From NCBI RefSeq assembly GCF_022458985.1, contig NC_061781.1, positions 326,001 to 390,000 on the forward strand: a DNA stretch of 64,000 nt, written 5' to 3'. The translations under genes and the position numbers were made by a program. Positions 19,601 through 47,429 of the stretch are shown here, one piece after another. This stretch comes from Mugil cephalus. Its lineage: Eukaryota > Chordata > Actinopteri > Mugiliformes > Mugilidae. How positions within the stretch are numbered: the stretch's first letter is position 1; the number at the start of each line of letters is the position of its first letter. The notes beneath the pieces are model-generated. The model saw nothing but the letters and a program-made list of their open reading frames with translations, made no database searches and was not told the origin of the DNA.

Positions 19601-20299
19601 TATGTGAGGGGCTGGAGATCAAAGACAAGACCACACTGCATGAGGAACGTCTTGCATTCTCCCAAGTTCCCGTCATACCGTTCAGGTGGGGAGACCCAAG
19701 GCTCCCTGGCGGGGTTGGCTGTAGTTTGTGCTCCGGTAGCTAGCACTGGAGGTGGGTTTTGCGGTGCGCCCTGGAGATTGGCCCCGCAGATCGATAAATC
19801 CCGGAGCCCGGCAATTATTTCCTGAAGTGCGGTGCTGTGCTGGTCCAGGATTGCTCCTTGAGCGGAGACGGCGTGACGGACAGGCTCCAGGTCTGCTGAG
19901 TCAATTCTGGCCAGATCGTTCTGTCAGAACTGGTGACAGGACTCAAACGCAGACCAGGAGTTAAAGTGATTTTCAGTGGGTTTTATTTGAAAACACAGAA
20001 ATGAGTCGTGGCGTGAGTTGCTGAAGAGTCTGGGCGAGCGCATGGATCAGAGCTCCAGGGGTCATGGTCTGGGCTTGCTCGCAGACGGATCTAGTTTCAG
20101 GCAGAGAGTGTGAAGGTGAGCTGATGCGACGATCCGGCAGGGACTGGAAGGTCGGAATGGTCTTTTATAGGGGAGTTGATTAGGTAACGAGGAACCGGAG
20201 TGCAGGTGAGATGAGTAGCAGGTGTGTCATCTGGATTTGCCCAAACCACGCCCACCAGCAGCCCAAAAGTAGTCAGCTCATGGCTGATGGGTCGTGACA
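16660..20299 (-). mobile_element. Ty3/gypsy LTR retrotransposon (sushi-like), 3' truncated and frame-broken
   Basis: Read on the minus strand, the order is 5' LTR (19922-20299), gag (about 19280-19900), CCHC knuckle CLYCGGPGHYLATCP (about 18962-19006), aspartic protease core LIDSGADESF (about 18800-18830), reverse transcriptase 17649-18320 with YLDD in [11 protein letters not shown] (about 18070), RNase H (17413-17628, WTDHKNF), integrase zinc finger with H-x-H/C-x2-C features (16960-17310) and the start of the integrase core (16660-16881, [15 protein letters not shown]). This gag-PR-RT-RH-IN order is the usual one. Frameshifts lie near 19590, 18330-18530 and elsewhere. The integrase is cut short at about 16660 and the 3' LTR is gone. 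The gag and integrase wording resembles fish sushi-type chromoviruses. Confidence 0.88.
19922..20299 (-). repeat. 5' LTR of the sushi-like element
   Basis: On the minus strand the 378-bp unit begins TGTCACGACCCATCAGCC and ends CACCAGTTCTGACA, so it starts TG and ends CA. A TATAAAAG box lies near 20162-20169, and AATAAAACCC near 19980 could be the poly(A) signal. The leader before gag begins GAACGATCTGGCC. The outer edge abuts L1 sequence exactly at 20299/20300. Confidence 0.75.
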
Positions 20300-26221: not shown

Positions 26222-26227
26222 TTTATT
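26222..26227 (-). terminator. poly(A) signal of the ColQ-like gene
   Basis: AATAAA on the minus strand lies 42 bp past the TGA at 26270-26272, in the text GCAATAAAATCTAAG. Its closeness supports the early stop being the real end of the gene rather than a missed exon. Confidence 0.6.
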
Positions 26228-26269: not shown

Positions 26270-29200
26270 TCAGCGTTCTTCGGAGTTTGGTTGGTGTTGA
26301 GGCACCTCCTGGAGGATGAAGGACAAGAATGTGACAAAGATGATAATGAAGAAGAAGGAGAAAAATAAGAAGGAGAAGAAAGAACCTCTGTGTCCTACAT
26401 AGAAAATAATCTGTCATTTTGTGTCATCACTGCTCTGAAGACAGCACGTTCATTAATGAACTCTATGAAGCCTGACATGAAATAATAAAGAATTCACACA
26501 TAAATATCTAAAAATTCCACTAATGTGAAATAATATTAATGCATATTTAAGATTTTAAATAATCTGAATAAATAGACTGACAGAGATGATTTACTTGTTG
26601 TATCGCATTTTATCAACATATTTTCATGATTTTACTGTAACATGTGTAGAGTATGAAGTAATTATACATTGCTTCAATGAAGTAAATATTCAGATTAAAA
26701 TATTAGCAACAACATTAATTATATTCATATCGTAACCGTTTCATTATTAGAAAAGATTTCCTTCCAGAAAGGTAGTCAATCATTGAAGCTTGAAAAGTTA
26801 CTGACAAGGATGAAATAATTAACATCTTTTTTTTTTTTAGGTAATTATGGATGATGTTAGTGGAGGTCTCAGAAAGTCATGGATTAGAGTATATCTGTGT
26901 ATCCAGCCATTACCAGGATGTTGACCCACTGAGACTCGGCGTAGATGTAAAGAGTTTTTCTGTCTGTTCGCAGCACCATCACGTTTTCTGCCCGAAGCCT
27001 CCTCATCTCCTTTTCATTGTCTGCGATGAAGATCTGGAGAACAACAAGGCAAGATGATTTTACATCTGGAAATGTCAAAAACTTCTTCAACATAAACTAT
27101 ATAAAAACGTCTGCTTTTATATAAATCAAATAACTACCATTTTGTCCTTGAGATCCCCTTCTGTTTTCACAGAGTTACGGAGTCAGGTAAATTTGTTTCA
27201 ACATTTTTTTTTCTTTTTCAAAGCAAAAATTAATTAAACTTTAATTTATTTATTTAATTCTTATTAGTATTATCTTATCTATCAGGGATCTCTACAACTG
27301 AAGATGAAGAGATCCGTGGGGAAATTATTTTTTTTAGGAGATTTACAACAACATACAAAAATTATAAATATATTAAATGTATGTTTACTTGACCGATTGT
27401 CTGAACTGTGTCCATTTGCAGCGGAGTTCGTGAACAGCTGCATGCGACTGGAGGTCCTTGGCTTCCCGAGTCTCCCTGTTGGCCTGGAAGGACGAACACT
27501 GGTGACAACAGGTAATTAAAGGTTACTTTAATAAAGTTATTATGAATATTTAAATATCAGTATCAGCTTAGATTTAAGACTTTAAATAAGCAAAGATTTC
27601 CCTAAATAGGAAATTCACAAAGGCGGCCATTTTGGAAATGGCTGTTACGTACTGCAGGGTAACCAGGTGGCAGATGACAAGAGTCAAATTCAAATGAAAT
27701 GTTTGGGAGTGTTTCCCCCCTTCGTGCAACACAAATAAAACCTTCTTTTTTAGGTTCTGTTTTATTTAAAATCTAGTAATATTAGACTGTCTTATGGCAC
27801 TTCTAGTTCATTTCAGCTTAGTCTGTTGTTTCTCTGTGGTGTTCTTAACCTTTTCTTTAATCGTGTTTGGTTTCCTTTGTTTCATGTATTGCCTTACTTC
27901 ATGTCTCTGTTTTCCCTCCTTTGTTTTGTGATTGGTTTTAGTTCATGCGATTTGAGATTTAATCTATTTAAAGAAATTGTCTCTTGGATTCAGGTTTTGC
28001 TCTCCATTGATCTTTCTTTGTATGCCTGCAGCTCCACACACCTTGTCCATGCAGGCCGGGCTCTCCAGTCAGACCAGCAAATCCTGCTGGACCGGGCTGA
28101 CCCACCTGCCCTGTCGGCCCTCCAGATCCCTTCAGCCCCTGCAAGCAATAATCATTAAATCACTGGATGAGCAAAGATTTCACAAATTTGTCAGTGTTTA
28201 GTAGACTGATGAGATCAAAGTACAATAGTTTGGTTTAAATGAGAGGAGTCATGTTTGGAGATGAACCAACACTGCATTCCAGCATATGAGGAAACCCACC
28301 AACATCTCAGAACTGAAGTGGTTCTCTTTTGAGGAATGAGCTACAATTCCTCCAAGCTGCTGGAGATAACTGATCAGAAGTTACCAGAAACATTTAGTTG
28401 ATGGTAATGCTGCACAAAGAGGTCACAGCAGATACTGGAAACAAGGGTTCACTTACTTACTTTAACAACTCACTGACATATATAATAGTGGTATAAATAA
28501 ATGTGCAAGTATAATATTTCTGTGTCATGTGTTTTATTGGGTTTTCTCTTGTCTACTTTCAGGTCCACCTGCTGATGTTTTGAGTTGTTTTTATGCAGAA
28601 AACTTTTAAGTTTCACTATATTTGTATAAACCTACCACTGTTCCTCTGCCTCCAGGCTTTCCTCTCAATCCTGGCTCCCCTCTCGGCCCAGCATCACCCC
28701 ACTGCCCCGTGTCTCCCTGAAATAAATCAACCTTCAGAGTCCACACCATTCATCTGTTGTATTTTATTCAAAGTGAATGTCTGTTTTACCTTCTCTGCCG
28801 ACATCCCAGTAATGCCACACTCTCCCTGCAGAGACACTTTCACTTTCATTTATATCGGAAATGAGCAGCAACACAAAGAAAAGCATTCCCTCACCTTCTC
28901 TCCACGGACGCCTCTTCTTCCCTTCAGTCCTGTCTCCCCCTGATTGATTGATTGGTTGATAGATTAAAGATCAATAAAAGAAAAAATATAAAGCGGAAGA
29001 GCTGCTTTTTAGAAACCACGGTAGAGAAAACTTACCCTCAATCCTTTACGGCCTTTACTGCCCTACAGACACACAAAGAGTAATAATATGCTGATAATAC
29101 CTTTTAGCTTCAGCCAAACTCCACTCATTTTCACACGATTTTTGTTTTGGAAACTATTAATTATAAATGACAAAAATGATGCAGCGTCTTCTGCAAAGGT

Positions 29201-32200
29201 GCATGAAACAGGAAATGAATGCAGTTCATGCAGTAAAACCCATATTAAATGTCCCCATTGAGGACTTTTTTGTTGTTGTTGTTCACAGTGCATTACTCGG
29301 GGTCAGTGTACAAATGAAAGTGTCATTTGTTTTGAAAGAAGAAAAAATGATAGCTGAAAATGATGGCTCAGTTGAAAACATTTGTGTGGTGAATTTTATT
29401 TGCACCAAATTCTCCCCAAAAAAAGAAAAAGGTGAGGCAAAAATATTTACAGGTCAGGCAGATAACAGACAAACCAAAAACAATAGCAGTTAGCAATAGC
29501 AGCTTCAGGCTGAGCTTACACCAGCAACTAGTAGCCCACGGTGCCACTAGACCAGAACTTCCCATCGACTGAGCAAAACGCCCTTTAAATACCCCTTAGC
29601 CCCTCCCCCGGGCAAACCAATTAACAAATTACAGGGGTATTAAAACATAATGCCGCCAACTGTGGGCAAAAATCTATACTTTAACAATACATTGACGTAC
29701 TGGCACAAAAATACTTTGATACAGTGATTCCCTTATTCCCCCAAAACACAACAAATCACAAAATATTACATGAATAAACCATAATAGTGTAGTCCATGGT
29801 GACATGACCATCAGTCAGGCCACCAAGTGCTATTTACAGCGTGACCCAGAAGTGCCTTGGCTTGGGCTGAGACCCAGAGGCAAATACAGGTGAGCATGAG
29901 CGTTTGTGTGTCTGAGTGTGTGTGTGATGCGTAGGCACCTAGTGTGCACTCTCGGATCCCTACAGCAGGGAAAACAGAGTCCAGTAAATTAACAGTTTGT
30001 GGGTAAGCAGGACCACAAAAAGGGAACATGGTCCCACGTGCACAATGAATGCGCTCAGTGCGTCCCGACACTGGCACGCTCCACAAACACAACACAAGTC
30101 TACCTTGAGGGTCCGGAATGCAATCTCACAGTCGTCGTTCCACACGACAGGGTTCCTCTGGTCCTTTGCCGTCAGGGCTGTCAAAGGGGTGGAAATGGTG
30201 GCGAACTGTGGGACGAACGTCCGGTACCAGCCGGCCAAGCCCAAGAAGGACCTTACCTCCTTCTTCGTGCGAGGGCGTGCGTAGCTGTGGATGGCCTCGA
30301 CCTTGTCCACCTGTGGCCGGACCTCGCCTCGTCCAGGCCAGTAACCCAGGTATTTTGCCTCCTACCTGGCCCACTGGCACTTGGCAAGATTCAGTGTCAG
30401 GCCTGCCTGCTGGATCTGACCAAGAACTTGCCCCAAATGCAGGTGCTGCTCCCAGGTGTCACTGAAGATGACCACGTGTCTGGAACGCAGTGTAGGGGTG
30501 ACTGGCCACTTCCAGTGGTACCTGCCAGTAGCCTTTCCTGAGGTCCAGAGTTGTGATGAACCTGGCCCGACCAATCTTCTCCAGCAGTATGTTGATCCGG
30601 GACATCGGGTAGGCATTGAACTCCAACATCGCATTGAGCTTCAATGTAGTCAATGCAGATGCGGAGTGAGCTATCCTTTTGCACCATGATGACCACCAGG
30701 CTGCACCACTCGAACTGCAAAGGCTCGATCACCCCCAGGCGCTGCATCTCTTACACCTCCTTCACAAGCTTTGCCACCAGTTGTTGTGGAACCCAGTAAG
30801 CCCTCTGGCAAACCCTTTTCTTTCAGGCGGACAACGTGCTCGACCAGGACAGTCTTCCTCGGTTTGGCAGCGAACAACTCAAAGACTTGCTGGAACACCC
30901 AGCTTAGCTGGCTGGATTGGATGGCAGAGAGGTGGTCGAGATCGGGTCCAGCAGACTGGTTGAGGTCGGCTATCGCAGGCTCCTCCCCTTTGCTGTCCAC
31001 CTCAGTCACCAGCAGGGATGCCACGGGACCCTGAACTGGAGCCTCCCTCCCATTTTTCTTGTCTGGGTAATGGATCTCATAGGTCACGGGGCCCATCTTC
31101 CTGAGAACCATGTATGGGCCCTGCCACTTCGCAAGCAGATTGCTCTTGGAGGACAGCAGGAAGAACATGACCTTCTGGCCGGGCTGGAATTCTCTGTGCC
31201 TGGCCTGACTGTTGTACCATGCCTTCTGGCTCTACTGGACTTCACGTAGGTTGACCTCGGCCCTGTCCCGGTACTTTGCCAGCCGGTCCCTTATCTCCAA
31301 CATGAACTGGACCACGCTGCGATCACTAGCAGTGGTTGCAGGATTCTACCAGGCCTTTAGCAGCAGATCCAACGATCCCTGGACCTCCCAGCCATACAAC
31401 AGTTCAAACAGGGAAACAGTCTGGCTCCCAGGATTTCGGATCCTTTTCAAAATGCTGCTGGTGGCGCAACTTCTGCAGGCCCTTTGTGACCCCCTCACAC
31501 AAACTGCTGTCCAGGGCTGAAAAGGGTTCTGGATCCGGCCAATTTTCCTGCCCTGGGATGGGTGTTTCCTCTGCCCTGGCCTGGGCACGGGTTATCACCT
31601 GACCAGACAACCCCCTCCCACAGTTACTGTCTTTTAGCTCCGCTTCCAGCAGCACATCCAGAAGTACAACTGCCATGGACCGGAACTGTTTGCGATACAT
31701 CTCCGTTGAGAAATCAAACTTGATCAGGAGTGCTGCCTTCAAGTAAGACTGGGCCCTCTCCTCGTCCATTGCCGTGTAAGCCTCCAGTGCCTTCCCAAAG
31801 AGGAGCGGCACCAGGCGACCCGCCCACTCACACTCTGGCCAACCCCACGTCATGGCAATCCGCTCAAAGCCAAGCAGGTAATTTTCAATGTATTCTACTG
31901 TGGGATTTTGGGGCCCACGGAGGGCCGGCTCTCTGGCCTAGGAGGTTCTGCTCCGCTGCTCCTCCCAATCCTTGGTTCCTCCAAGGGTGAACTGCAGAGT
32001 AGGCAAGTCCAACCTAAGGCTCATCATCGACCCCTCAGATGATGCTGCCACCGGCTGACCCAGTTGCGGTGCTGCCAACGCCGCAGCTCCTTTGACCTCA
32101 TCCTCTGTGGCCCAGGCTCCCTCACCTACAGCTTTGTCCTGAGCTGCTTCCTGCTTGTGTGAACCGTGTGCATCCCCATCGACTGGCCATCCCACTTCTT

Positions 32201-35200
32201 ACACCAAACGGGTTCGTTTTGAAATAAGAAAAAATGATGGCTGAAAATGATGGCTCAGTTCAAAACATTTGTGTGGTGAATTTTATTTACACCAAATTCC
32301 CCAAAAAAGAAAAAGATGAGGCAAAAACAGGTCAGGCAGATGACAGACAAACCAAAACAAAAACAAAGCTTATTTACTTACTTAACCTGTGAACCTGTGA
32401 ACATCGCGACACTGTGGCTACCTACGTGTAAGCTAGCTGCTCAAGTGTGAATGGGACAGAGGCCAGCGCTGCTACCGGGAAAGTAGAAATCTCTGTGGTG
32501 GAAAGGAGACTGGAGTAAATGGATAAAGGAAGGACTGTGTGGCACAACAGAAAGACATTAATGCACATACGCAGAAACTCATTGCTGAAGGAACATTGTC
32601 AGAATGATGCTGTTCGGAAACATTGGACCATTTGAAGAAAATACATAGTAATGGAGTTCATACACGGAAATGTTTGAGTATTTTAACAAATTTAACAAAA
32701 TCAAAGCTGGTGTTATTGTATCAACATTTTGTATGTGCATGTTATGGGAGGAAAAATATTCAACTGACTGCACAGTCCAGTGCAACCTGCCAAGCCAGGA
32801 GACAAGTCCTATGATGAAATAGTGACAATATTAAAGGATCACTATTCACTGAAGCCACTGATCATTGCAGAGAGATTCAGATTCCATAAAAGGAACCAGA
32901 AAGAGGTTGAATCTGTTTCACAATTTGTAGCTGTACTGAAACAGGACTTTCACTCAGTGACATCATACGTGACTGGCTGGGGTGCGGTCTACGCAGTGAG
33001 GATATTCAGAAACAGGTACTGACTGAAGCTAACCTGAGACTGGATAAAGCCACTGAGATCAGCACATCAATGGAGATGGCTGCCTGAAAAACACAGCAGC
33101 AAGTGCATCAACCCACGTGCATAAGGTGTCTGCTGAATCCAGCAAAAAAGCAGTACCTGGACAGCTGTGCTACTGTTGTGGGAACACCAGAGTGTTGGTG
33201 TAGGGACTTAGACTATAGGAATTGTGGTAAGAAAGGCCACATCGAACGTGCCTGTAGAAACAAGAAGACTTAGACACACAAACTGTTCAATGAGAAAAAG
33301 AGAGGTGGCTTTCACAGAAATAAAAAGGAACCAGTGAATAAGAAGGAACATGAACAGGATGAGCAGAGTGATTGTGAGTCTGATGAAGATACCGTACATG
33401 TTTTATCTGTCATGGACAACCATTATGATGGATATTGGGTCAACAACTACTTGAGAATAAACCAGTGTGGATGCAGTGTGGATGCATGGTATCAGAAGTT
33501 GTGTACAAAGAGAAACTGCAACACCTTGCTCTCTGAGAGACCAACCTGAAGTTAAGGACATACACTGGTGAGCCTGTCCCAGTGTTAGGAGCTGTGAATG
33601 TGACAGTGGAATACAACAAAGAAAAGAGACTCTTCCACTTATGTATCATCTCAGGAAACTGTCCATTTCTGTTAGGTCGCCGGTGGCTTAAAAAAAATCA
33701 AGCTGGAACCTGTTCTGGAACCTGTAAGCACAAGTGAATAGGCTACACCCATTGTCATGAAAAAGGACAGAACTCCAGGAATCTGCCGAAGGCCAGCTGG
33801 GTAGAAGGTAGAGGGCATGAGAAACAAGATATACAAACTTGTGTCATAGATCCATATATCAAGCTGAAGGAAACACGTAGGATCTAATAATACAACATAT
33901 GCTGATGAATGATCTTATGTGACAGTTTGAGAGTATAAGAGGGGTCATGGGCAGGTTGGTGAACTGTTCATCTAGGTAGGAGTGGACAACTGCAAGCCAT
34001 GAAGACTGGGGCAGATGTAGTTTATGGAGATCCACAGGTCTGATACACGGCACTCCAGCCCATGAAGACTGGGTTGAGGCCACGACAGCAGATGTAGCTT
34101 AGAATTCCACAGCTCAGATATGCAGCACTCGAAGGCTCTACCTCCATTTTACTTTTAGAAGCTCTAGGAACCACAAGTTCCAGACAGTAATAAGTTACAA
34201 TAATCCAGCCTGGTTTTTCAGCATCACTCTGAGAAAGGATGTTCCTAATTTTGACAATATTACGCAGGTGAAAGAAAGCAGTCCTGGTCACTTGCTTTAT
34301 TTGAGAATTTAAAGATATATCCTCGTCAAATATAACACCAAGGTTTGTCACAGTAGTACTGGAGGCCACGGTAATGTCATCCAACGAAACCAGGGGATCA
34401 GATAATGAATCTCTGTGATGTTTAGGGTAGTAAGTAGAAAATTACAAGTCTTTAAGGCTTCATCTGGTTTCATGGATAAATATAGCTGGATATCATCTGT
34501 GAAGCAATGCCATGCTTTCTAATAATATTGCCTAAGGGAAGCATGTATAATGTGAATAATATTGGTCCTAGCACAGAACGCTGAGGGACTCCATACTTAC
34601 TTTGGTATATACAGAAGAATCATTGTTTACATGGACAAACTGAAATCTATCAGACAGATATGATTCACAAATAGTGTCAAATGCAGCACTAAGATCTAGC
34701 AGGACAAGTATAGAGACAAGTCCATCGTCTCAAGTCATCATCAGTATCTCTTTGGCAGGAAATTCATGCTACTGACAGACCAGCGACCTCCATCTTTGGT
34801 CCTCACAATGGCACTCCATCACTGGCAGCCAGCTGTATGCAGCGAGTGGCTCTCCTGTTATCTGCCCACCAGTATGAGATCAAGTATAGGAAGTCAGACC
34901 AACATCAGAATGCTGACAGGCTCTCAAGACTCCCTTTGCCTGTCACACACTGAGCCCACACGAGCCGAGATATTTTACTTCAAGGATGTGACGGCTGCCC
35001 CAATCACCTCAGCTCACATGAATTAACACACACTCACTGACCTAGTCTTGTCTGAGGTTCTGGATATCATCACTTGGGGAAGAAGAGGAGGAGAGATGAC
35101 ACCCAGCTTTAAGCCTTACCTGGTGAGACAAGATGAGCTTTCAGTCCAGTCTGGATGCTTATTATGGGGCTACCGTGTCATCATTCCACCACCCCTAAGA

Positions 35201-38200
35201 GAGCTGCTTGCTGAGCTGCATACTGGACACTGTGGTGTGGTGCGGATAAAAGAAATATTACGCAACTATTTCTGGTGGGACTGGATGCTGCTATAGAGGA
35301 GAAAGCAGGGTCCTGCTCTGACTGCCAGAAATTGAGAAACCTCCCACAGCTGGCACCATTACATCTGTGGGACTAGCCTAAAAAACCGTGTGAAAAAGTC
35401 CACATAGACTTTGCTGGACTGCTGGAGAACTGCATGTTCTTAGTGGTAATTGAAGCTCATAGCAAATGGCCCAAGGTTGCTGTGATAAAGAGCACCTCTT
35501 CAGAGAAAACCATCGAAGAGCTAAGGTCTATCTTCAGCCTTTGGTCTACCACAACAACTTGTCAGTGATAACGGCCCACAGCTAGTGTCTGAAGAGTTCA
35601 AGACACTTATGGAAGAGAGCACATCAAGTCTGCGCCTTATCACCCAGCTACAAACGGGCTCGCTGAAAGATTTGCACAAACTATGAAGGAAGCTTTGAAG
35701 TCCTCTCAAAGCACACGGTCACTCTGTTGCCTCAGTGCATTTGTTGTCATATAGAAATACACCTCGTGCTACAACAAAGTTGTCCCCTGCTTCGTCTATG
35801 CTCAAGTGACAGCTCCGCACTCAATCTTAGGAGACCACAGAAGACTAAAGGGGTTGTTCATCTTCAAGAGAGAGCTCAAATGGCAAGATGAGCAAAAGCA
35901 AAGTGCTGAAGATTTACAGCTGGAGATAAGATCCTAGCCCAGAACTACACCAGTGGTGTTAAGTGGACACCTACAACAGTTGTGGCAAAAACAGGTCCTG
36001 TTTCGTACACAGTGGAAACCAGTGATCATCTTATCTGGCGAACACACGTCGATCAATTGCTTCACACTTATGGTTCCTGTGATGACTCATCTCAGGGACC
36101 ATCTCTTGTTTCCAAGCTGGAGATCCATCAGGAGCAACATCAATTCAGGAACCTTCAGGAATGGACAGTGTTGCAGGCACACCTAGCCTGCTCAGGTGCT
36201 GATGCCTGGCATCACTCCCAGCCCAGGATTCATACTGTATTAAATGTAGTTTATTTGTAGCTTTGGAGGCGAGGCTCCCTGAATTGGAAGCACAGCTCCG
36301 CACCATGCAAAAACCAATAGATAGCCAGCGCCCTGTAGTCGGTGGCATAGCATAGCTCAGCTCCTGCTAGCTGTCCCCCTGCACCACCTGAGCAGTCGGG
36401 AAACTAGGGTGGCTGAGTGACGGTATGAAGGAGGCATAATCTTACTCAGCCCACGGTGCACTACCAACCTCTTCACGTTGCAAACAGATTTACCCCACTC
36501 GGCGACACACCCGCTGAGAAACCAACTCTGGTAATTTTCGACTCTATTTTGCGGAACGTGAAGTTAGAGAAACCAGCGACCACACTCTGGCCCCTGCATT
36601 CCAGGGGCCAGAGTGGGTGGCACCAAATCTTATCTCAAACTGCTGGCTAAGGCTAAGTATGGTACGATTGTTATTCACGTCGGCAGTAATGACCAACGGT
36701 TATGCCAAACCATGACAACCCAGAGTTCAGCCCAGGAGGCAGAGCTGCAGTCTTACATGCTTCTCTGCAGCATCTCTAGTACTGTCTCACACCCATAACT
36801 CCTCAAACTCCATAGATGTGCTGTCTCCATCCAGATCTTTTAAATTGAAAAATAACAATAGAGGGGTTATTCATATGAACCCTATACAAATCAACACAAA
36901 TTCACTAGTACAACAGAACAATAAGAAAATTAAATGTGGTCTTTTAAATGTCAGATCTCTCTCGTCTAAATCTCTTTTAGTGACTGATCTCATAACTGAT
37001 CACCAGATTTGACAGAAACGTGGCTGCAGGATCAGTTTTAATGAGTCCACGCCACCCAGTCATAGTAACTATCACATTCCATGAGACACAGGCCGAGGAG
37101 GAGGAGTGGCAGCAATCTTCCACTCTGATTTATGTATTAATCCTAGACCTAAGCAAAGATTTAATTCGTTTGAAAGCCTTACTCTTAGTCTTGCTCATCC
37201 AGACTGGAAAACACAAAAAACAATTCTCTTGGTTGTGGTATATTGCCCACCTGCTCCTTACTCTGAATTTTTAGCTGAATTCTCTGAGTTTCTGTGTGAT
37301 TTAGTGCTTAGAACAGAAAAAGTCATTATAGTAGGTGATTTTAACATCCATGTTGATGTTGGCAGTGACAGTCTTAGCTCTTCATTTATGCCATTATTAC
37401 ACTCAGTTGGCTTTTCTTTTTTGTAAATGGTTCAACTCACTGTTTCAATCACACCCTAGATCTTGTACTAACATATGGCATAGAAACTGAAGGTCTAACA
37501 ATATATTCTCATAACCCTCTTTTGTCTGATCATTTCCTTGTAATATTTAAATTTACTATAAGAGATTATACTGAAATTGGAAAGATGTTTTGTTATGGTA
37601 GGCACTTATCTGATGATGATGTAACTAGATATAAGGAATTAATTCCTTCCTCCTAATTCCTTATTACTCTTCATTAATAGAAGAAAACAAGAACAACCCC
37701 AGATTTCTTTTCAACACTTTAGCCAGGCTGACAGAGTCAGAGCTCTGTTGAGTCATCTTTTCCTTCAGCCCTCAGCAGTAATGACTTCATGAGCTTCTTC
37801 ACTAATAAAATTGTTGCCATTAGAGATAAAATTCATAGCATCCTTCGAGCTGTCAAAGATGTAAGTACAGTGACATTAGAAACCTCTGTAGGACCTAGTC
37901 AGTACTTGGATACATTCGTTGTAATTGATCTTCCAGAGCTCACTTCAGTTATTACAGCATCTAAACCATTAATTTGTTTTCTAGACCCCATCCCGACTAA
38001 ATCACTCAAGGAGGTTTTTCCATTAATTAATACCTCAATATTAAGTCAGATAAATTTACCCACCTTGACCCAGATGTTTTAGCCAATTTCCAACCTTTCT
38101 TTTATTTCTAAAATTTTGGAAAGGGTTGTTGCCGAACAGCTGTGTGATCATTTTAACAGGAACGGTTTGTTAGAAGAATTTCAGTCAGGTTTTAGAGCAC

Positions 38201-41200
38201 ATCAAAGTACAGAAACAGCTCTGATTAAAGTTACCAATGAGCTCCTCATGGCTTCAGATGATGGACTTGTCTCTGTACTTGTCCTGTTAGATCTCAGTGC
38301 TGCATTTGACAATACTGATCACAGTATTCTACTACAGAGACTTGAAAGTGTGATCAAGATTACAGGAATTGCATTAGACTGGTTTGAATCATATCTGTCA
38401 GACAGATTTCAGTTTGTCCATATTAACAATTCTTCTATATATACCAAAGTAAGCTATGGAGTTCTGTGCTAGGGCCAGTGTTATTCATATTATACATGCT
38501 TCCCTTAGGCAGTATTATTAGAAAGCATGTCATAAACTTCCATTGCTATGCAGATGATACCCAGCTATATTTATCCATGAAACCAGATGAAACTAATCAG
38601 CTGGTTAAAACTCAAAGCCTGCCTTAAAGACATAAAGTCTTGGATGACCTGTAATTTTCTACTTTTAAACTCAGACAAAACAGAAGTCATTGTATTTGAC
38701 CCTAAACATGTCAGAGATTCATTATCTAATCACCTAGTTTCGTTGGATGGCATCACTATGGCCTCCAGTACTACTGTGAAAAACCTTGGTACTATATTTG
38801 ACAAGGATATTTCCTTTAATTCTTACATAAAGCAGGTGACCAGGACTGCTTTCTTTCACCTGCGTAATATCATCAAAATTAGGAACAACCCTTCTCAGAG
38901 TGATGTGGAAAAACTAGCTCATGCATTTGTGTCTTCCAGGCTGGATTATTGTAATTCATTACTTTCTGGCTGTCCAAATAGCTCTTTAAAAAGCCTCCAA
39001 TTGATTCAAAATGCTGCAGCAAGAGCACTGACAGGAATTAGAAAGAAAGATCATATTACCCTAGTTTCAGCTTCTCTTCATTGGCTCCCTATAAAATCTA
39101 GATTTGAATTTAAAATCCTCCTCCTTACATACAAGGCCTTGAAAGGCTCCATCATATATGAAAGACCTCATAGTACCATATTGTCCCAACAGATCACTAC
39201 GATCTCCAAGTGCAGGTCTACTAGTGGTTCCTAGAGTTTCTAGGAAGAGAAAAAGAAGTAGAATGGGAGGTAGAGCCTTCAGCTATCAGGCTCCTCTCCT
39301 GTGGAACCAGCTCCCAGTTTGGATTCAGGAGGCAGACACCATCTCTACTTTTAAGGTCAGGCTTAAGACTTTCCTTTTTGAAAAAGCTTATAGTTAGGGC
39401 TGGACTTAACCATCCCTCACCTATGCTGCTATAGGCCTAGGCTGCAGGGGGATGATGCACTCTCCTCTCTCTTCTGTCTTCTGTCCTTAATATCTCATAA
39501 TTTATTTTCTATTACTAACCACTGTGTCTCACTCTCTCCTCTCCCCCTCCATCGTCTTGTGAGAGTCTCTGGTCTGGAGTACTGAATATCTGACCTGTGG
39601 AGTTCTAAGCTACATCTGCTGCCGTGGCCTCATCAACCAACCCATTCTTCATGGCCTGGAGTGCTGTGGAGCTCCATAAACTACATTTGCCCCAGTCTTC
39701 ATGTCCTCTTCCAGTTGTCCACTCCTACCAGATGAACAATTCACTAACCTGCCCATGATTCCTGTTATACTCACAAACTGTGACATAAGATCATCAGCTA
39801 TGTGTTATATTATTAGATTCTACATGCTTCCTTCAGCTTGATATATGTATCTATGACAGAAGTTTGTTTATCTGTTTCTCCTGTTCTTCTTTTCTCTCTA
39901 TCTTCTCTGTTTCTACCTGGCTGGCCTTTGGCAGATGGGTCCCTCCATATGAGCTGGCTTCTGCTCAAAGTTTCTTCCTGTTAAAAGGGAGTTTTTCCTT
40001 GCCACTGTCGCCCTCAGGCTTGCTCTGGAGGTTGCAGGCCGGTTTTTGTAAAGCGTCTTGAGACAATTTGTATTGTTATTGGCGCTATATAAATAAAACT
40101 GAATTGAACTGAATTGAATTCAGTCCTAACCAAGAGACATTTTGATTGACTTATCCACAGGTCGCACTTACCCCAGAAGAAACAGACGACGTCCTGACAG
40201 ACTGTTATTGTAGTATAGCGACTAACCCATACAGTGGGGCAGAATAACCTCCAGGGTTCAGTCTCGATTGATGTAGTACCCTCTCTCTGTAGTTAAGGCA
40301 AAAGTTCTATAGCCATAACATCAGGGCAGGAATTTCATGAGGGCCCACAAGGGCCATGGCCCTGGTGCTTTCTCAATTTGGCCTTGTGACCTTGAAAAAA
40401 ATAAATGCCTTAAGGCCACTGATGCCCTGCAGTTTTGTGGTTTTGTAGTCTGCCTCTTGACTGTCAACAGGTTTTAACACCACCAGCATCTATGAGAAAA
40501 TATGTCTTTTGACAATGCTCTGAATTCTTATTGGACAACTCATCAGTGGTGGATCTGATTCGAGCCTGGCATGAACTGCTCTGATGGGCTATAATAATAG
40601 ATTGACACGATCTATCATCAACCAACCAGGAGACTTAATCAGACGCATGCCTCACCCACTTGTGTCCGCATCTGTGAATTTTCACTGAAGAGAGAGGAAA
40701 AGTTTACTGAGGTAAGACTGTGTTATAAATTAACAAAGGAATAAGCTCCGCTCGTTGTGATAGGATTTTATCGCTTGGCTTAACGTGGCTTCAATTGAAC
40801 AGGAATACTGTGTAGACCTGGGTTTTTCGTTCTGATGTTTATGATTTTGTCACTCAACGGTCTGACAGACTGTATCATCGTAGAAGCTTCAGCTCAACAA
40901 TAAGTTTTGGTCTACTCCAATTGAGACTGATCTCTGAAGGGCAGAGATTTGTGTTCATTTTTTTCAATCAAACAAATCAAATGCATTACATTATCGATGA
41001 TTAATGGAAGTGCATAGGTGAACGTCATGTTCGGGAAATTGCACTGATCGGGGAATACATATGCAACTGTGTTTATACAGCTTGTAACCTATAACGATAT
41101 CCCACACTTTCTTAACGATCATGGCCGCAGCCTGCATCCGAGGAGATTTGGCTGCACATACAGCATCACAGTGATTTATTCCAATATTGGCAGCCTTTTT

Positions 41201-44200
41201 TAGGAGAAGGGGTTTGACTGGTCCATTCTTCAGGTCATCAACAAACTGCAATGTTATCTGCAATGTAAGCGATGACATATGAGGGAGAAAAAAGCAGGCG
41301 CGCAGCTCTCACAGCAGGAGGTCTGACCCGGGACCTCTGCCAATGGGAAAACGCACCAAAGGCAAGTCGACCCGGGATTTTCCAAGCAGTATAAGATAGG
41401 AATTTCAACATATAGGCCTAGGGCCTAAGTTTGTTACCAATAAATAAGCATTGCTTGTACTGTAGCGTTATGTCGTTACAACGTTGACCCACTTTTAACG
41501 GGCCGAGTACCGACTGTAGCCTGTAACAAATGCTAATTAGCTTGCTGTCAAGTTTTTCTTTTGTCAAGCTTTAAGGTACGGTCATGGATGTTACTGCTTG
41601 TTCCTGCTGTAATATGATACGTGACATGTGCTGGCTGTTCATAGCCACTTTTAATCTATGCAGTTAGCACTGCTTTGTTACTGCCAGTGTTGCAGTGTTG
41701 TGCAAATTTGCTTATAATTTAATATTTAAATATAATTTAATTTAAAGATCTTGAGACATGAGAGTGCTATTTTTTAAAAATAAAAGGTCAGAAAATTGTC
41801 ATTGTAATCTATTTTAGTTCATTTTATTTCCTCAATAATTTTTCTTGATTGAGAAATTGGTCTGGGCTCTTATGGGTTAAACAGCAGCCTGCATGCTAGT
41901 AGACTATATGTTCCATTTACAATCAAACAGGATCAATTTTGATTAATCCAAAATCTGTGTAGTAGTACAGTCTGAAGATGCTCTTGCGTATTCGGTATCA
42001 ATTGAACCAAAATTTATAGGAGGATATAGGCTTAATAAGCTTCACAGTTTTTGAAATGAGTGATGGATTGTTAAGGTTATATGTGTTCAATATTTTCTTA
42101 TCTTCAGACATAATAGTGTAAGAGATGTTTCTTTACCTGCTTGATAGTTTCAACTGAAACTCCAATCTTCCTCAGAAGTGTCATTAGTCTTTAGTTTAGA
42201 TTCATTATAGACGTGAACTGAAAATGTGAACCATTTTATTTTATGGCCTTGGTGCCCTGGCTTTTGGCCTATGTGCCCTCAAAAAATTCACAACACAAAA
42301 GTGGCCTTGTCCCTAAAATGACAAAATTCTAGGCCTGCATAACATGTTAATTAAAAGTTCATTATAGATTGTGTATTTGAAGCAGAGACTTTAAATGAGA
42401 ATGCAGAGCTAGTAAGATGATTGACTTGTATTAAGGGAACATCAAAAGTAAAGGGGGAGGGATATGTTGTATATATGACAGCCTAAGTTATCCCACCAGG
42501 GATATGGTTATGCCCCTCTGCGTTATGTGTTGTGAAGTGATGTATTGAGTTTTCTGTCCTAAGTTGAAAAGCAATACAGGCAGTCGTGGAAATACTCCTG
42601 GTCTCCCAGAGTTTGTTATTTAGATTAAAATTTAAAATATTAAAATATTAGGAACACATGTCAGGTCAATTGTTTTGCAAAATGAACACAGTTGAATCAA
42701 CATCTCTCTCACTTATTAGAAGCTAATGTTGAATGGTTTAAAGCAGGACTGTTATAATGGGTTCACTACTCTACCCAATGAAGTGGCGAGTCCAGTAAAT
42801 ACATAAATATTTGCTGGCGTACCTTTATCATCCCAGGAGTTCCTATGTCTCCATACAGACCCCTCCAGCCTTGGTTGCCCGTCTCTCCCTGACAAAAAAT
42901 TAGAATCAAGCACAAATAATAATACACTGAAACTAAAACAAGGGCAGCTGGACTGGTAGAGTTTCAAGAAACCCATTTGGTTTAGTTTCATTTTTTTAAT
43001 TTATTTATTTTTTTGTCGTGATGGTTAATTATTATTATTATTATTGTTGATAATAATAATAATAATAATAATAATAACCTTTAATTTTCCAGCAATGATG
43101 CTGTGATACTGCATTCAACTTTGTTGTTGAAGTCCCTGAAGGTTTCAATGTGGTGAAGAGTGTTGCCCACCAACAAAGACAGGATTGCCAGATGCTTATA
43201 AGATGTTATAAGTGACTGAGTTTATGCTGCTGACGATGGGTCTGAGTGGGGCTCCCTGCTGTTCCTACTGTTGTAGGTAGTTTATTATTTCATTTATCGT
43301 ATTGGTTGGTACTCGTCTCAGTGTCTCGTATGTATCTTCAGGGATCTTCCCTTGTTGGTTGGTAGAATGGTGATGTTCTCTTTGCAGTGACCCTAGAGCC
43401 TTCCTTTCCTGGGTGATGATGTTGTTTGTGTTGGCAAGTTGTTTGGCTTCTGTGTAGTGAGTTTGTTGTTCTTTATGGTTCCGTGGGTGTGCTCTCTCTC
43501 CGACAGATTCTGGATCCGCTTCTCCTGGATGTTTAGCTGTGTGGTGTGGTCATCCTTTCTCCTCCATGTCAGTTCCTCAGATTTGTGTTTGTTGCCGTGT
43601 GGTGTTTGTAAAAAAAAACACATCACCATCCTACCAGCCGACAAGGGAAGATCCACAGTGTTGTTGAACACACCAAAGTGAACAACCTTCTCAGCAACAG
43701 CAACGAGACACTGAGACAAGACAACCAACACCTACAAAACCAGAACAATAAACTACCTACCTACAACAGTTCAAAAAGGAGAAGGCAATCGACATAGTCA
43801 TTTACTTTACGACCGGGTGTTCCTGGGGGGAGACATCAGCACTAACCACTGAGCTGCTGTGCCGCTACGCCATGTATTTATGGACTACCCAAATTACACA
43901 AGAAGGAGCCCCTCTCAGACCCATTGTCAACAGCATAAACTTAGTCACTTATAGCATCGTTAAGTATCTTCATTCATCCTGTCTCTGTTTGTGGGCAACA
44001 ATCCTCACCACACTAAAAACTCCAGGGACTTCATCAAGTCAGGAACATCACACTGGGTCCAGAACAAACCATTGTATCGTATCCTATGATGTAACCTCCC
44101 TGTTCACATGAATCCCCACCGGAGAAGCCACAAAAGTAGTACGGGAAAGGTTTCGAAAGGATGACACCTTGGCCAATAGAACCAACCTCACCCCAGACCA

Positions 44201-47200
44201 AGTCTGGGTGTTACTCATCCTGTGCCTGACTACCACCTATTTACAATTCTACAAGCAAGCATTCTACAAGCAAAAACACGGCCTTGCGATGGGGTAAAAA
44301 CTGGTCCACTCCAAAGACACCCAGGCAACAGCAGTAATGTAGCATATGCTGTTCAGTGCAATGAGGAATGTACAGACTTGTACATTGGGGAAACCAAACA
44401 ACCCATCCACAAACGCATGTACCAACACGGGAGAGCCAGCTCATCCGGAAGGGATTCAGCGGCCTACCTCCTCTTGAAGGATAAAGGACACTTCTTTGAA
44501 GGTAGCAACTTCCAAATCTTAGCCATAGTGGACAGGTGGTTTGAAAGAGAAGCAAAGGAAGCCATCTATGTGAGATTGGAAAACTAAGATGGACTGAAAT
44601 ATCATCTGCCATCAATATACAATGCAGTCTCGTTTACAGAAACAAGTCAAGCAAGTTTCTGATGGGTATACCTACAGTTTCCCATTTAAACCTCAAACTT
44701 CCCACCGGTCCTTTAGAACTGAAGAAGCTAGAACTGAGTGGCAAAACGTCTTCTCAAAACTACAAGTCCAGTTGCCTTATTGTACAAATGTAATCACAAT
44801 GGCATAAAACAAATCTGGAGAAAGGTTTAAATTATGATGAGGCAAAATATTATAAAGTTTTATTTTGCATCCATTAGATTTGTTGTTTGGGTGTGCATTG
44901 ATAGATTAATCCAAAAGGTGTTTAAAAAGACAACTGGAATTGTAGAGTTTAAAGAAGACGTTTCGCTGCTCATCTAAGTAGCTTCTTCATTTCTTGCTCT
45001 ACTCAGATGAGCAGTGAAAAACATCTTCTTTAAACTCTACAAGTCCAGTTGTCTTTTTAAACGCCTTTTGGATTACCATGACTTGAGAACCTTCACAGAC
45101 CTGTAGATAGATAAAAACAAACACATTAAAGTCCACATGTTGCCAAGGATGTGACGACAACACTGTAAGACGCAGACTGCTGAACTAGAGGAAACTAGTG
45201 TCCCTGTAATGTACATAAGCTTTTTAGTGTCCCCTGGAAACATTTGAGTTGTCTCAAAAGTGTCCGTAGATGAGGTGTGACTCTAGATTTATTTCAGTTT
45301 TCTGTTTTTTGCAGGATTTTTCCAAATTAAGATTGGAACACAAATGGGACACATCAATGAATCCTAAATAATAAAATGTGTCAATAACTTTTACATAATT
45401 CAAAAATCAAACTCGTTCAGAGAGTAAAAAATAAACGTGTCAGAAGATTCTTAAAATATAAAATATTGTGAGATCTTTGTCCTTTTCTTTGTCCTATGTT
45501 TGTGTAATTGGTGATCTGTGAGATACACTGGGCCCAGTGATTCAAATTATAAAGATGCAAAGTACAAGTTTTATTTTGCATTTGTTTGCATTTGTTGCTG
45601 TTACTTCTCTAGCGTTTGTTATACTTCAACTCTTCAAGAGGTTGGGTTTTAATTTAGTTCAGTTTTCTCTTGTGCAGATTCATTTATTGAACTTAAATAT
45701 ATAAAAGCGCCACATAGATAATGTGTTCTGCAATGATGTGTCTGTTGATGCTCTATCTGAGACCTTTTGACCCAGCTGTCCCATGACTCCCTGAGTTCCT
45801 GGTTCTCCGTTCGGACCCGTCACACCTGGACAACCCTGAAACACAAGCAGCTTGTTGACGTTTCCTGTTCTAAACACTAGTGTCTAATCTTTACGTTAAA
45901 TAATCCATAGTACCTTAAGTCCTCTGGGTCCCCTGCAGCCCTGCAAATACCAACACCATTCAGAGAGGCCTAGATGTTAAAATATGAACATGTTTGTTGT
46001 TCACCAGGAGGTCTGAGCTACCTTCTCTCCCTTTGCTCCCACGATGTGTTCTGTTATATCAACCTGAAGAGTTAAAAAGAAAGTTTTACTTTTTAAATCT
46101 GATCATGGAAACAGTGGGGATTTGAAAAGTTTAAGGAGAGGTGAAACTCCTCACCATCAGTTCCTTCTTCCGTTTAACCGGAGGAAACATCGGGGGAGGA
46201 ACAGAGGGAGGGATGAAGGCTTCACATTTCCTAGCCAACCACTTGTTTCCTCGACTGGATGTGAATCCTGAAGAAACACAAGAGCAACGAGTGGCAGTCA
46301 GTGACATCTGGTGGTGGAGTTGTAGATTACAACCAATAAAATAATTCCAGGGTAGAGGAGTCAGAGATGGACTGTTAAAATGGAGACCAGATAAAATGAT
46401 AGGATCAGAGGCGTGTTTACACCAGAGCATCAAATCATTTTGGAACTTTAGAGAGGGCTGAGGGAGAGGAAAAGAAAGAGGAGAAGAAGATGAGACTGGT
46501 AGAACAAGAGGGGGAACGGGATGAGGGAGAAAGAGGAAATGAGGTAGTGGAAGAAGGTGATGATGGAAAAAGTAAGAAGGAGAAATAAGAAGGAAGAAGA
46601 AAGTGAAGACAGGAAGAAGGAGGAAGAGGAAAAAGGGAAGAAAAGGTATATATAAAAGTAGTAGTATATTCTCCTTCATGTTTACCTCTATGTTAGGCCT
46701 ATGTATTAAAAACTATAGCGTGTTGCATTTATGAAATGAAACAACTGCTACAGAGAAAACGAAATTTTAGTCATGCATACATAACATATCCATGGTTGGC
46801 TTAACTCCAGCCGAAAAGTTCAATAAATAGCGGGCTGGACCTGCTGGCAGTTGTGATGTATTTTGAGCGACAAAAAATTTAACACATTTCATTTTAATGT
46901 TACAAGATCACCATCAATTCAAATTTAGAATTATATTTAAAAAACTAAACGAACTAAAATAAAATACATTTGAATTAAAAACTCGATGTACTGTAGGAGT
47001 TCATTGTTTTTGGTTGATGTTACAACCATGAGTGTTTACTCAACTGTCGCTCAGTTGTTGTGTAGCTTTTGCTCGTTCACTATTGAGTGTATAGTTGCCG
47101 AGGCAGTTAGCGTGAAAAAATGAACGACTTTAATCAGTGTCCTTGCTCCGCACCACTCGTCACACAAAAGAGCCTCTGAGCCGCGGGTTGCCAACCCCTG

Positions 47201-47429
47201 AAGATGACCACGTCTTAGTGTTGTTGTTTGTCTCTTAAAGAGGTAAATGTGGGAAAGAGGTCTAACTCCACCAGTTTTTGGCCACCAAGAAGTGAGTCAT
47301 TCAATGTCCAGCTGAATTATATTCGGTTCAGTTAGTTGTGTTTTTATACTCACTAGTTGTAATGGAGGAATCTGCTGGTTGGAAACCGCAGAGCAGAGCA
47401 CTCCATCCCAGTACCAGCTGAGTCAGCAT
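26270..47429 (-). CDS. short secreted collagen, ColQ-like (acetylcholinesterase collagenic tail family)
   Basis: Coding exons on the minus strand, all with AG/GT edges and matching phase: 47354-47429, 46155-46267, 46022-46063, 45914-45940, 45764-45835, 42823-42888, 29036-29062, 28895-28939, 28790-28825, 28636-28716, 28042-28138, 27389-27483, 26914-27033 and 26270-26308. They predict about 311 residues: signal peptide [15 protein letters not shown]; a Cys + Pro segment [17 protein letters not shown]; about 54 Gly-X-Y triplets with few breaks; C-x-C after the helix ([11 protein letters not shown]); and a 40-residue [14 protein letters not shown]...[13 protein letters not shown] domain. ColQ has the same order: proline-rich attachment domain, collagen, C-x-C, then a similar trimer domain. 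ColQ trimers anchor acetylcholinesterase tetramers in synaptic basal lamina. Here the Cys-rich tail of ColQ is missing. Collagen nature is sure; the ColQ link is strong inference; the role is unproven. Confidence 0.8.
26914..27033 (-). CDS. ColQ-like gene exon 13: C-terminal trimerisation-type domain
   Basis: Forty codons in phase 0 encode a compact domain with pattern IFIADN-E-M-RL...[23 protein letters not shown]. The aligned ColQ region has the same spacing of I-F-x-x-x-N, E-E/M, R-x-D-x-x-x-LY and W, and the trimer domains of collagens XV/XVIII have a related plan. It likely nucleates the collagen triple helix. The next exon adds only [12 protein letters not shown] before TGA. Confidence 0.75.
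29329..32365 (-). mobile_element. degenerate Gmr1-like Ty3/gypsy retrotransposon (integrase before reverse transcriptase)
   Basis: Direct repeats of about 135 bp at 29331-29485 and 32220-32365 share ACATTTGTGTGGTGAATTTT and are taken as LTR parts. Read on the minus strand: gag N-terminus (31938-32195), gag [28 protein letters not shown] region (31404-31853), protease-end-like [11 protein letters not shown], the integrase C-terminal region with the [20 protein letters not shown] block (about 31020-31250), then in the same frame [20 protein letters not shown] leading into reverse transcriptase (30100-30750: [28 protein letters not shown]) and its thumb [20 protein letters not shown]. Integrase ahead of RT is the Gmr1 order. 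The protease and most of the integrase are deleted, and stops and shifts are many. Confidence 0.75.
33842..34736 (-). mobile_element. L2-like LINE 3' fragment inserted in the gypsy element
   Basis: On the minus strand it gives [40 protein letters not shown] and then 3' UTR that matches the copy at 39500-39850 (for example ATGATCTTATGTGACAG against its complement). An internal part is deleted. Gypsy coding text resumes at 34737 with [12 protein letters not shown]. Confidence 0.75.
36255..40122 (+). mobile_element. L2-like LINE, nearly full length but broken
   Basis: ORF1 starts with a short coiled coil ([18 protein letters not shown], about 36267) and a decayed esterase. The endonuclease follows at 36930-37430 ([39 protein letters not shown]). 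Reverse transcriptase runs 38080-39400 ([42 protein letters not shown] region lost to a frameshift near 38550, [23 protein letters not shown]). The 3' UTR ends in GCGCTATATAAATAAAACTG and TGAAT repeats, the fish L2 tail. It interrupts the gypsy element on the same strand. Confidence 0.88.
40322..42337. mobile_element. hAT-superfamily DNA transposon with intact 8-bp target duplication
   Basis: CATAACAT occurs at 40314-40321 and again at 42338-42345, directly outside ends that read CAGGGCAGGAATTTCAT (left) and, in reverse, CAGGCCTAGAATTTTGT (right). An 8-bp duplication with CAGGG-like tips fits hAT. Subterminal parts of both arms are rich in GGCCTTG/GGGCAC words. Internally I saw no transposase: a splice-donor-like GAG|GTAAGACTG near 40710 and an ATG at 41341 that closes after 18 codons. 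The minus frame at 40991-41278 (95 codons) has no known domain. It is probably a deleted, non-autonomous copy. Confidence 0.8.
42615..42800. repeat. MITE-like element, right-half copy 3
   Basis: AAAATATTAAAATATTAGGA, GAATCAACATCT and CCAATGAAGTGGCGAGTCCA match the copy at 1500-1690. It ends about 22 bp downstream (in gene sense) of the ColQ-like exon donor at 42823. Confidence 0.6.
43028..43080. repeat. (ATT)n/(AAT)n microsatellite with a turn in the middle
   Basis: ATTATTATTATTATTATTG then TTGATAATAATAATAATAAT, so the tract is self-complementary around 43048. Confidence 0.85.
43195..43735 (-). pseudogene. Penelope-like element fragment, minus-oriented
   Basis: On the minus strand: [20 protein letters not shown] (linker), [14 protein letters not shown] text near 43350 and [12 protein letters not shown] near 43240, all from the N-terminal part of a Penelope-type reverse transcriptase. 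It faces the plus-strand copy that starts around 43610. Confidence 0.65.
43605..44820 (+). pseudogene. Penelope-like element with RT and GIY-YIG endonuclease remains
   Basis: Plus strand: [20 protein letters not shown] (43620), [20 protein letters not shown] (43899), [11 protein letters not shown] (44078), then in other frames [12 protein letters not shown] and HGLAMG near 44285. The endonuclease follows at 44320-44587: [20 protein letters not shown], with the GIY-YIG-like VAYAVQC and DLYIGETK, then KRMYQHGRA and a late catalytic-type E in [14 protein letters not shown] core is deleted. Penelope elements are retroelements that pair RT with this nuclease and are common in fish. Confidence 0.8.
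44907..45075. repeat. long imperfect palindrome from Penelope-type ends
   Basis: Arms of about 75 bp face each other around 44990: AATCCAAAAGGTGTTTAAAA... on the left and its complement ...TTTTTAAACGCCTTTTGGATT on the right, sharing AAAGAAGACGTTT/AACATCTTCTTT and CATCTAAGT/CAGATGAG. It lies just past the Penelope 3' end. Confidence 0.75.
46155..46267 (-). CDS. ColQ-like gene exon 2: PRAD-like Cys/proline segment
   Basis: The exon reads [13 protein letters not shown], then [17 protein letters not shown], then KRKKELM. In ColQ the proline-rich attachment domain is a Cys pair followed by a Pro run with Phe near the end, and it organises an acetylcholinesterase tetramer. Here there is one Cys, eight prolines and two Phe in 17 residues, flanked by basic residues. 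The position, between signal peptide and the first Gly-X-Y, is the same. Whether it still binds a cholinesterase is not known. Confidence 0.7.
46450..46660. repeat. purine-rich (GA) tract in a ColQ-like gene intron
   Basis: Nearly pure A/G on the plus strand, with AGGAGAAGAAGATGAGA and GGAAGAAGGAGGAAGAGG words. The minus frame at 46131-46679 is a composition artefact apart from the real exon at 46155-46267. Confidence 0.85.
46780..47207. mobile_element. hAT-type non-autonomous fragment
   Basis: The right tip in reverse reads CAGGGGTTGGCAACCCGCGG and CTCAGAGGCTCTTTTGTGTG, typical of a fish hAT end. The left boundary is unclear, somewhere near the GCGGGCTGGACCTGCTGGCA text at 46829. No frame inside. 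Confidence 0.4.

Follow-up and report, generated by a model that had tools for sequence, protein, structure and literature searches.

The minus strand of a 64-kb stretch of Mugil cephalus DNA (64,000 nucleotides, hereafter the window) carries a short collagen gene that resembles ColQ, and it raises the question of whether this is a genuine gene, whether it is ColQ itself or a relative, and what its product might do. A sequence-only reading had joined 14 small minus-strand exons, with clean splice edges and consistent phase, into one 311-residue protein. An independent rebuild from 47429 to 26270 agreed in full: 14 exons, comprising 936 nt with the stop codon, encode 311 residues in a frame that is open throughout, and all 13 introns of this predicted model begin with GT and end with AG. 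Introns 1 and 11 are in phase 1, and introns 2–10, 12 and 13 are in phase 0. In the flank of exon 1, the third codon upstream of the ATG is an in-frame TAA. The N-terminus of the protein is hydrophobic and appears by eye to be a putative signal peptide.

Table. Positions in the window of the collagen gene's exons and of neighbouring features.
Feature	Position	Strand	Remark
Exon 1: ATG and residues 1–26, a putative signal peptide	47354..47429	-	ends in phase 1
Exon 2: single Cys40 and Pro-rich segment, resembles ColQ PRAD	46155..46267	-	sequence comparison
Exon 3: linker, then beginning of Gly-X-Y helix	46022..46063	-	
Exon 4: GCRGPRGLK	45914..45940	-	
Exon 5: 8 Gly-X-Y triplets	45764..45835	-	
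Exon 6: 7 triplets and 1 residue, a helix interruption	42823..42888	-	
Exon 7: GSKGRKGLR, basic stretch begins	29036..29062	-	
Exon 8: basic; candidate heparin-binding site	28895..28939	-	by composition
Exon 9: Ala in place of Gly at one position	28790..28825	-	
Exon 10: 9 Gly-X-Y triplets	28636..28716	-	
Exon 11: main helix ends; phase 1 end within Gly codon	28042..28138	-	
Exon 12: final triplets, C-S-C motif, linker	27389..27483	-	
Exon 13: trimerisation (P-CTD) segment, ...VNIL	26914..27033	-	match to human COLQ and predicted fold
Exon 14: final 12 residues and stop, where COLQ has the Cys-rich D-CTD	26270..26308	-	
AATAAA polyadenylation signal, 42 bases past stop	26222..26227	-	
Probable raph1 (lamellipodin) last exon frame, FPPPP-rich	3646..6048	+	
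Probable large rif1 exon frame, SILK motif at 58664	58536..61256	-	

The 311-residue protein matched the Pfam Collagen model (PF01391, 8.2e-24) and no other Pfam model at E up to 10. We scanned both strands of the 64 kb for exons of the form AG-(Gly-X-Y)n-GT with n of at least 3 and a pyrimidine tract. The minus strand gave three hits, all of them exons of this gene, and the plus strand none; these strict rules pass over the gene's remaining accepted exons. Applied to 60 strands simulated from a first-order Markov model with matching composition, the scan gave no hit in any of them. Within intron 6, the scan rules used found no candidate for a missed collagen exon with at least two triplets, a search that is non-exhaustive since such rules also miss some accepted exons. 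An extra exon of 23 bases at 27138–27160 (donor CAA/GTAAAC) was rejected: it would bring in a stop codon where the next exons join, and leaving it out preserves the reading frame as well as the junction shared with human. We read the locus as an intact gene that codes for a protein.

For all ColQ comparisons the reference was human COLQ alone, with the sequence taken from PMC3836704. Against the human proximal C-terminal domain (P-CTD), the C-x-C and trimerisation segment reached an SW score of 85, a value attained by none of 2000 shuffles (mean 24.6, sd 4.1), and blastp over the P-CTD gave 7e-12 with 25 of 87 residues identical. Exon 13 scored 79 against human residues 315–374, where the best of 1837 decoy slices scored 27; 13 of its 39 aligned residues are identical to human COLQ. 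When the window was searched with human COLQ by tblastn, the highest-ranking match (E 0.005) covered a stretch in which exon 13 lies. These comparisons show that the window protein and COLQ are homologous in the C-x-C motif and in the P-CTD, the trimerisation domain. Searches of human COLQ against Pfam gave, besides Collagen, only sub-cut-off matches: SGL over the P-CTD (0.22 with the whole protein, 0.009 with the piece alone) and DUF4215 over residues 374–400 (0.00016).

Two intron positions in the C-terminal half also match human COLQ. The human 13/14 junction (c.954/955) falls directly before I319 of IFVV and the window 12/13 junction directly before I260 of IFIA, both in phase 0. The human 12/13 junction (c.814) splits Gly272 and the window 11/12 junction splits Gly228, both in phase 1 and both at a helix interruption. 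The first intron is in phase 1 in the window gene, as in human COLQ (c.106; PMC9354381). Other human junctions examined (c.106, c.321, c.393, c.1195 and c.1298) lie in stretches without a codon-by-codon alignment or without a counterpart.

Toward the N-terminus the likeness is weaker. The Pro-rich segment scored 50 against that of human COLQ, which 2 of 2000 shuffles also reached, and its match of 49 exceeded the best of 748 slices from the Pro-rich raph1-like frame (45) by a small margin. It keeps PPPMFPP beside a Cys, with a spacing nearly that of the human protein CCLLTPPPPPLFPPP. Homology of this segment to COLQ's is only weakly indicated, less clearly than for the P-CTD. The interrupted helix counts 54 triplets with three irregularities, shorter than the 63 of human COLQ, and contains fewer prolines (6 at X and 8 at Y, compared with 18 and 24 in human). 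Lys or Arg occupies the Y position in 7 of the 11 triplets of residues 133–165. By composition there is one dense basic stretch, residues 133–156, and a second was not seen along the helix; in COLQ the helix bears two basic sites that bind heparin. The proposal that the protein follows the ColQ plan survives in part. A hydrophobic start, Cys and Pro-rich segment, short interrupted helix, C-x-C and trimerisation segment occur in the same order as in COLQ, with the C-terminal homology and shared intron positions behind them, and the ColQ-like ends set beforehand as the test against another collagen type are present as far as the trimerisation domain. Several features depart from that plan: a single Cys in place of two ahead of the Pro-rich segment, the presence of three Cys within the helix, different neighbouring genes and the lack of a distal Cys-rich domain.

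This last difference separates the gene from colq proper. In human COLQ the distal domain (D-CTD, residues 375–455) contains ten conserved Cys and binds LRP4/MuSK (domain roles in PMC10671321 and PMC10382678). The window gene ends 12 residues past exon 13. A query of human residues 359–455 found nothing significant in the window among the matches listed (best E 3.6, scattered), and a separate search of the window with human COLQ found no D-CTD at E up to 10. The ten Cys are marked in a figure legend of PMC4556666, which also reports Cys397 of this domain as kept in zebrafish and fugu COLQ. Given these conserved Cys, the missing D-CTD match rules out a true colq orthologue; the two adjacent Cys that COLQ has before its Pro-rich segment are likewise represented here by Cys40 only.

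The chromosomal setting bears on the gene's origin. We take the flanking frames to be probably raph1, from its sequence features, and rif1, from its motifs; an RVSF motif lies at 58501, just downstream of the rif1-like frame on the same strand. Neither frame matched a Pfam family, and the rif1-like frame had no PDB match. RIF1 lies at human 2q23. RAPH1 is at 2q33 (PMC6152381), COLQ at 3p25 (PMC10935773), and SATB1 and SATB2 at 3p24.3 and 2q33.1 (PMC2211742). Human chromosome 3 has been counted within the Hox paralogon in a study that does not settle whether the ancestral linkage of chromosome 3 genes was to chromosome 2 or to chromosome 7 (PMC2566581); linkage to chromosome 2 would make an ohnologue reading fail. 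So low an identity to human COLQ points to a split long ago. The probable neighbours, raph1 and rif1, suggest that the copy arose in the vertebrate genome duplications and has since been lost in mammals. The sequence is best read as a COLQ paralogue that split off long ago and may be a 2R ohnologue.

Could the locus instead be a pseudogene in decay, or a set of exons that line up by chance? The exon 5 donor is weak (AAG/GTCTCA, 5 of 9 consensus positions), intron 6 spans 13.8 kb with transposon remains, and exon 14, with only 12 codons and a stop, is the least certain exon of the predicted model; reading through exon 13 would give an alternative end of 9 codons before a stop. Nevertheless, 14 exons remain open and in phase with every splice site GT/AG, even though exon 13 matches human at just 13 of 39 residues, and no comparable exons arose in the simulated strands, making decay or chance very unlikely. 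We give still less credence to an unrelated collagen with a generic trimerisation fold of the XV/XVIII kind and ColQ-like ends acquired by convergence. A single-sequence prediction of exon 13 (beta-alpha-beta-beta-beta, mean pLDDT 85) does resemble the secondary-structure order of the collagen XV/XVIII trimerisation domain. However, the C-terminal part of the protein matched nothing in a PDB sequence search, with no collagen chain at E up to 10, whereas it does match COLQ, and it shares the C-x-C and an intron site with that gene. A two-sequence profile gave 9 PDB matches (best E 0.071), none of them collagens, and the N-terminal part gave only 3 chance matches (best E 0.75).

Among readings within the COLQ family, a teleost-specific (3R) colq duplicate that lost its last exons would account for the COLQ-like architecture and intron positions. 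It is improbable given so few identities in exon 13 and probable neighbours of 2q type rather than 3p25 genes. A less remote alternative, which we still consider unlikely, is that the Pro-rich segment no longer binds cholinesterase and that the product, a small matrix collagen, binds heparan sulphate and has some other partner. The single Cys, the interrupted Pro run, the modest score relative to Pro-rich decoys and the absent D-CTD are consistent with this, but PPPMFPP is kept beside the Cys, a motif that one would expect drift to blur once binding was lost.

We therefore favour, as the probable explanation of the whole, an intact COLQ paralogue rather than the orthologue, arising from an old split as a duplication copy lost in mammals, that would serve as a trimeric cholinesterase carrier held by heparan sulphate without synapse targeting. 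The P-CTD would bring three chains together and zip the short triple helix, each chain's Pro-rich segment would, in the secretory pathway, thread the C-terminal (WAT) helices of four cholinesterase subunits, and the basic stretch would bind heparan sulphate. Lacking the D-CTD that binds LRP4/MuSK, the complex would stay in the matrix through heparan sulphate and would not be placed at the neuromuscular junction. As ColQ's synapse-targeting end is absent, cholinesterase may be anchored somewhere other than the synapse.

PRiMA carries a transmembrane segment and lacks a collagen helix. It anchors AChE in the membrane (PMC10671321 names it), and the window protein would use the same principle of attachment through a Pro-rich segment. 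Polyproline peptides of lamellipodin (RAPH1) hold BChE tetramers (PMC6152381), the same proposed principle of one peptide holding four cholinesterase subunits, but there the peptide is a fragment of another protein and not a collagen; the adjacency of our gene to probable raph1 is probably a coincidence of synteny. In the open-access literature, titles and abstract openings among the matches listed announced no ColQ paralogue gene, and the sole 'colq-like' was the name of a frog motor-neuron marker (PMC7250574). An automatic annotation of the gene may well exist, as this search covered open-access papers alone.

A wider and more tentative proposal, which we consider somewhat less likely than not, is that 2R left vertebrates with two ColQ genes. 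The second, beside raph1 on a 2q-type chromosome, would still exist in fish, with the frog 'colq-like' marker perhaps a further survivor, and would have been lost in mammals; its product would form a collagen-tailed cholinesterase in heparan-sulphate matrix instead of at the neuromuscular junction, splitting anchoring from MuSK/LRP4 signalling. The gene adjoins what is probably the one whose polyproline peptides hold the tetramers of human plasma butyrylcholinesterase. ColQ has two jobs, anchoring acetylcholinesterase at the nerve-muscle synapse and signalling through MuSK/LRP4, and a natural relative that has the parts for holding the enzyme and for trimerising, but not the signalling end, would separate them. 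Such a relative could explain collagen-tailed cholinesterases outside the synapse.

Rebuilding the ColQ-type short collagen gene from the minus strand gave 14 exons joined into 936 nt encoding 311 residues, exactly the coordinates and length put forward in the sequence-only reading, which had proposed a ColQ-like collagen between raph1 and rif1. The clean splice edges and consistent phase described there were also recovered: 13/13 introns are GT-AG, with phases 1, 0 (nine times), 1, 0 and 0 in order. The donors (n = 13) agree with MAG/GTRAGT at 5–8 of 9 positions, agreement being lowest at exon 5. An in-frame TAA is the third codon upstream of the ATG, and an AATAAA lies past the stop. A strict scan for Gly-X-Y exons between splice sites, under rules that pass over the remaining collagen exons of the gene, returned three minus-strand matches, all three in this gene, with none on the plus strand of the window and none in 60 simulated strands. 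Twelve residues follow exon 13 before the protein ends; reading on past the exon 13 donor would leave 9 instead.

Features of the window, with the evidence for each
Feature	Position	Strand	Evidence
ColQ-type collagen gene	47429-26270	-	AATAAA at 26222-26227
Probable last exon of raph1	3646-6048	+	reading frame rich in FPPPP motifs
Tc1/Sleeping Beauty-type transposase frame, 335 codons	6542-7549	-	Pfam HTH_SB 2.9e-24, DDE_3 1.4e-14
Retrotransposon-like frames	16960-19923	-	17649-18338, reverse transcriptase domain 6.1e-32; others judged by eye
Open frame, 182 codons	20319-20867	-	Pfam: no match
Retrotransposon-like frames, intron 6	29960-39436	both	30671-31231, Integrase_p58_C 1e-06
Frame in intron 6	38581-39234		retrotransposon-like by eye; Pfam: no match
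GIY-YIG endonuclease match, weak, intron 5	44180-44587	+	0.0016, below Pfam cut-off
Probable rif1	58536-61256	-	reading frame with SILK, then RVSF at about 58501

The 13.8-kb length of intron 6 is probably due to the retrotransposon-like frames inside it, and the GIY-YIG match in intron 5 is possibly a remnant of a Penelope-like element.

Human COLQ, as printed in full in PMC3836704, served as the single reference sequence for all comparisons. Pfam matched the collagen repeats alone in the 311-residue protein. The C-terminal part aligned to human COLQ with a Smith-Waterman score of 85, reached by 0/2000 shuffles (mean 24.6, sd 4.1), and blastp against ColQ, one of the checks proposed with the sequence-only reading, matched this part to human COLQ at E 7e-12 with 25/87 identities. 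Exon 13 (40 residues), corresponding to the proximal C-terminal trimerisation domain (P-CTD), scored 79, and 13 of its 39 aligned residues are the same as in human COLQ; 1837 decoy slices, cut from the frames of probable raph1 and probable rif1 and from human COLQ outside this segment, reached 27 at most. The top tblastn match of human COLQ to the whole window (E 0.005) was a stretch including exon 13. A single-sequence AlphaFold model of this exon is predicted as beta-alpha-beta-beta-beta (mean pLDDT 85, pTM 0.53; the other four models, 60.6–73.0), an order that we take to resemble the collagen XV/XVIII trimerisation domain. The N-terminal Pro-rich segment scored 50 against human COLQ (reached by 2/2000 shuffles), and 49 against a maximum of 45 for 748 decoy slices of the Pro-rich raph1 frame, which makes it weaker evidence for COLQ homology than the C-terminal part. 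The proposed ColQ plan stands for the trimer part and less firmly for the Pro-rich segment, but the distal Cys-rich C-terminal domain (D-CTD) is absent, and one Cys precedes the Pro-rich segment whereas COLQ has two. Three Cys lie inside the helix.

Intron positions were compared with human COLQ at the first intron and at junctions 12/13 and 13/14; PMC9354381 places the two junctions at c.814 and c.954/955. Translated, human junction 13/14 lies directly before I319 of VIFVV in phase 0, and junction 12/13 of the ColQ-type gene directly before I260 of QIFIA, also in phase 0. Because the I319/I260 block aligns gap-free between the two proteins, the two junctions are, on this alignment, one intron site. 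Human junction 12/13 falls within Gly272 and junction 11/12 of the ColQ-type gene within Gly228, each in phase 1 at a break in the helix. The first intron is in phase 1 in both genes, in a region without codon-by-codon alignment.

The missing distal domain rules out the fish colq orthologue. The Cys-rich D-CTD spans residues 375-455 of human COLQ (PMC10671321), and a search of the window with residues 359-455 gave nothing better than E 3.6, the weak matches being scattered. In the D-CTD alignment of PMC4556666, which includes zebrafish and fugu COLQ, Cys397 is fully conserved, and the figure legend marks ten conserved Cys; a gene without this domain is therefore not their orthologue. We hypothesize that it is a 2R ohnologue of COLQ, a copy dating from the vertebrate genome duplications. 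Its neighbours are probably raph1 and rif1, although Pfam on both frames and a PDB search with the rif1 frame confirmed neither name. Human COLQ maps to 3p25, RAPH1 to 2q33, SATB1 to 3p24.3 and SATB2 to 2q33.1; RIF1 is a 2q23 gene, and other gene pairs are likewise divided between 3p and 2q. The probable raph1/rif1 setting and these map pairs thus put the gene where such an ohnologue could be expected. Human chromosome 3 is counted in the Hox paralogon in PMC2566581, which leaves open its ancestral joining to chromosome 2 or 7.

The probable raph1 exon lies only 20 kb from the ColQ-type gene. According to PMC6152381, the BChE tetramers of human plasma are held together by polyproline peptides from RAPH1, whose identity as the CHE2 locus was supported by genotyping. 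The adjacency is striking, yet carries no functional link between the two genes here.

Among the matches listed from the open-access literature, titles and abstract openings described no second ColQ-type gene in fish, though an unnamed or automatic annotation entry may exist; PMC7250574 has a frog marker named 'colq-like'.

In COLQ, the P-CTD is required for triple-helix formation. AChE tetramers bind to the Pro-rich domain, heparan sulphate to the helix and LRP4/MuSK to the distal domain, while anchoring at the neuromuscular junction depends on the C-terminal domain as well as on the heparin sites (PMC10671321, PMC10382678). The fish protein has the proximal C-terminal domain, a probable counterpart of the Pro-rich domain and one dense basic stretch (K or R at the Y position in 7/11 triplets, residues 133-165); unlike COLQ, it lacks the LRP4/MuSK-binding domain. 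From this combination we infer, by analogy, a trimer that would carry cholinesterase and would stay in the heparan-sulphate matrix rather than being aimed at the synapse.
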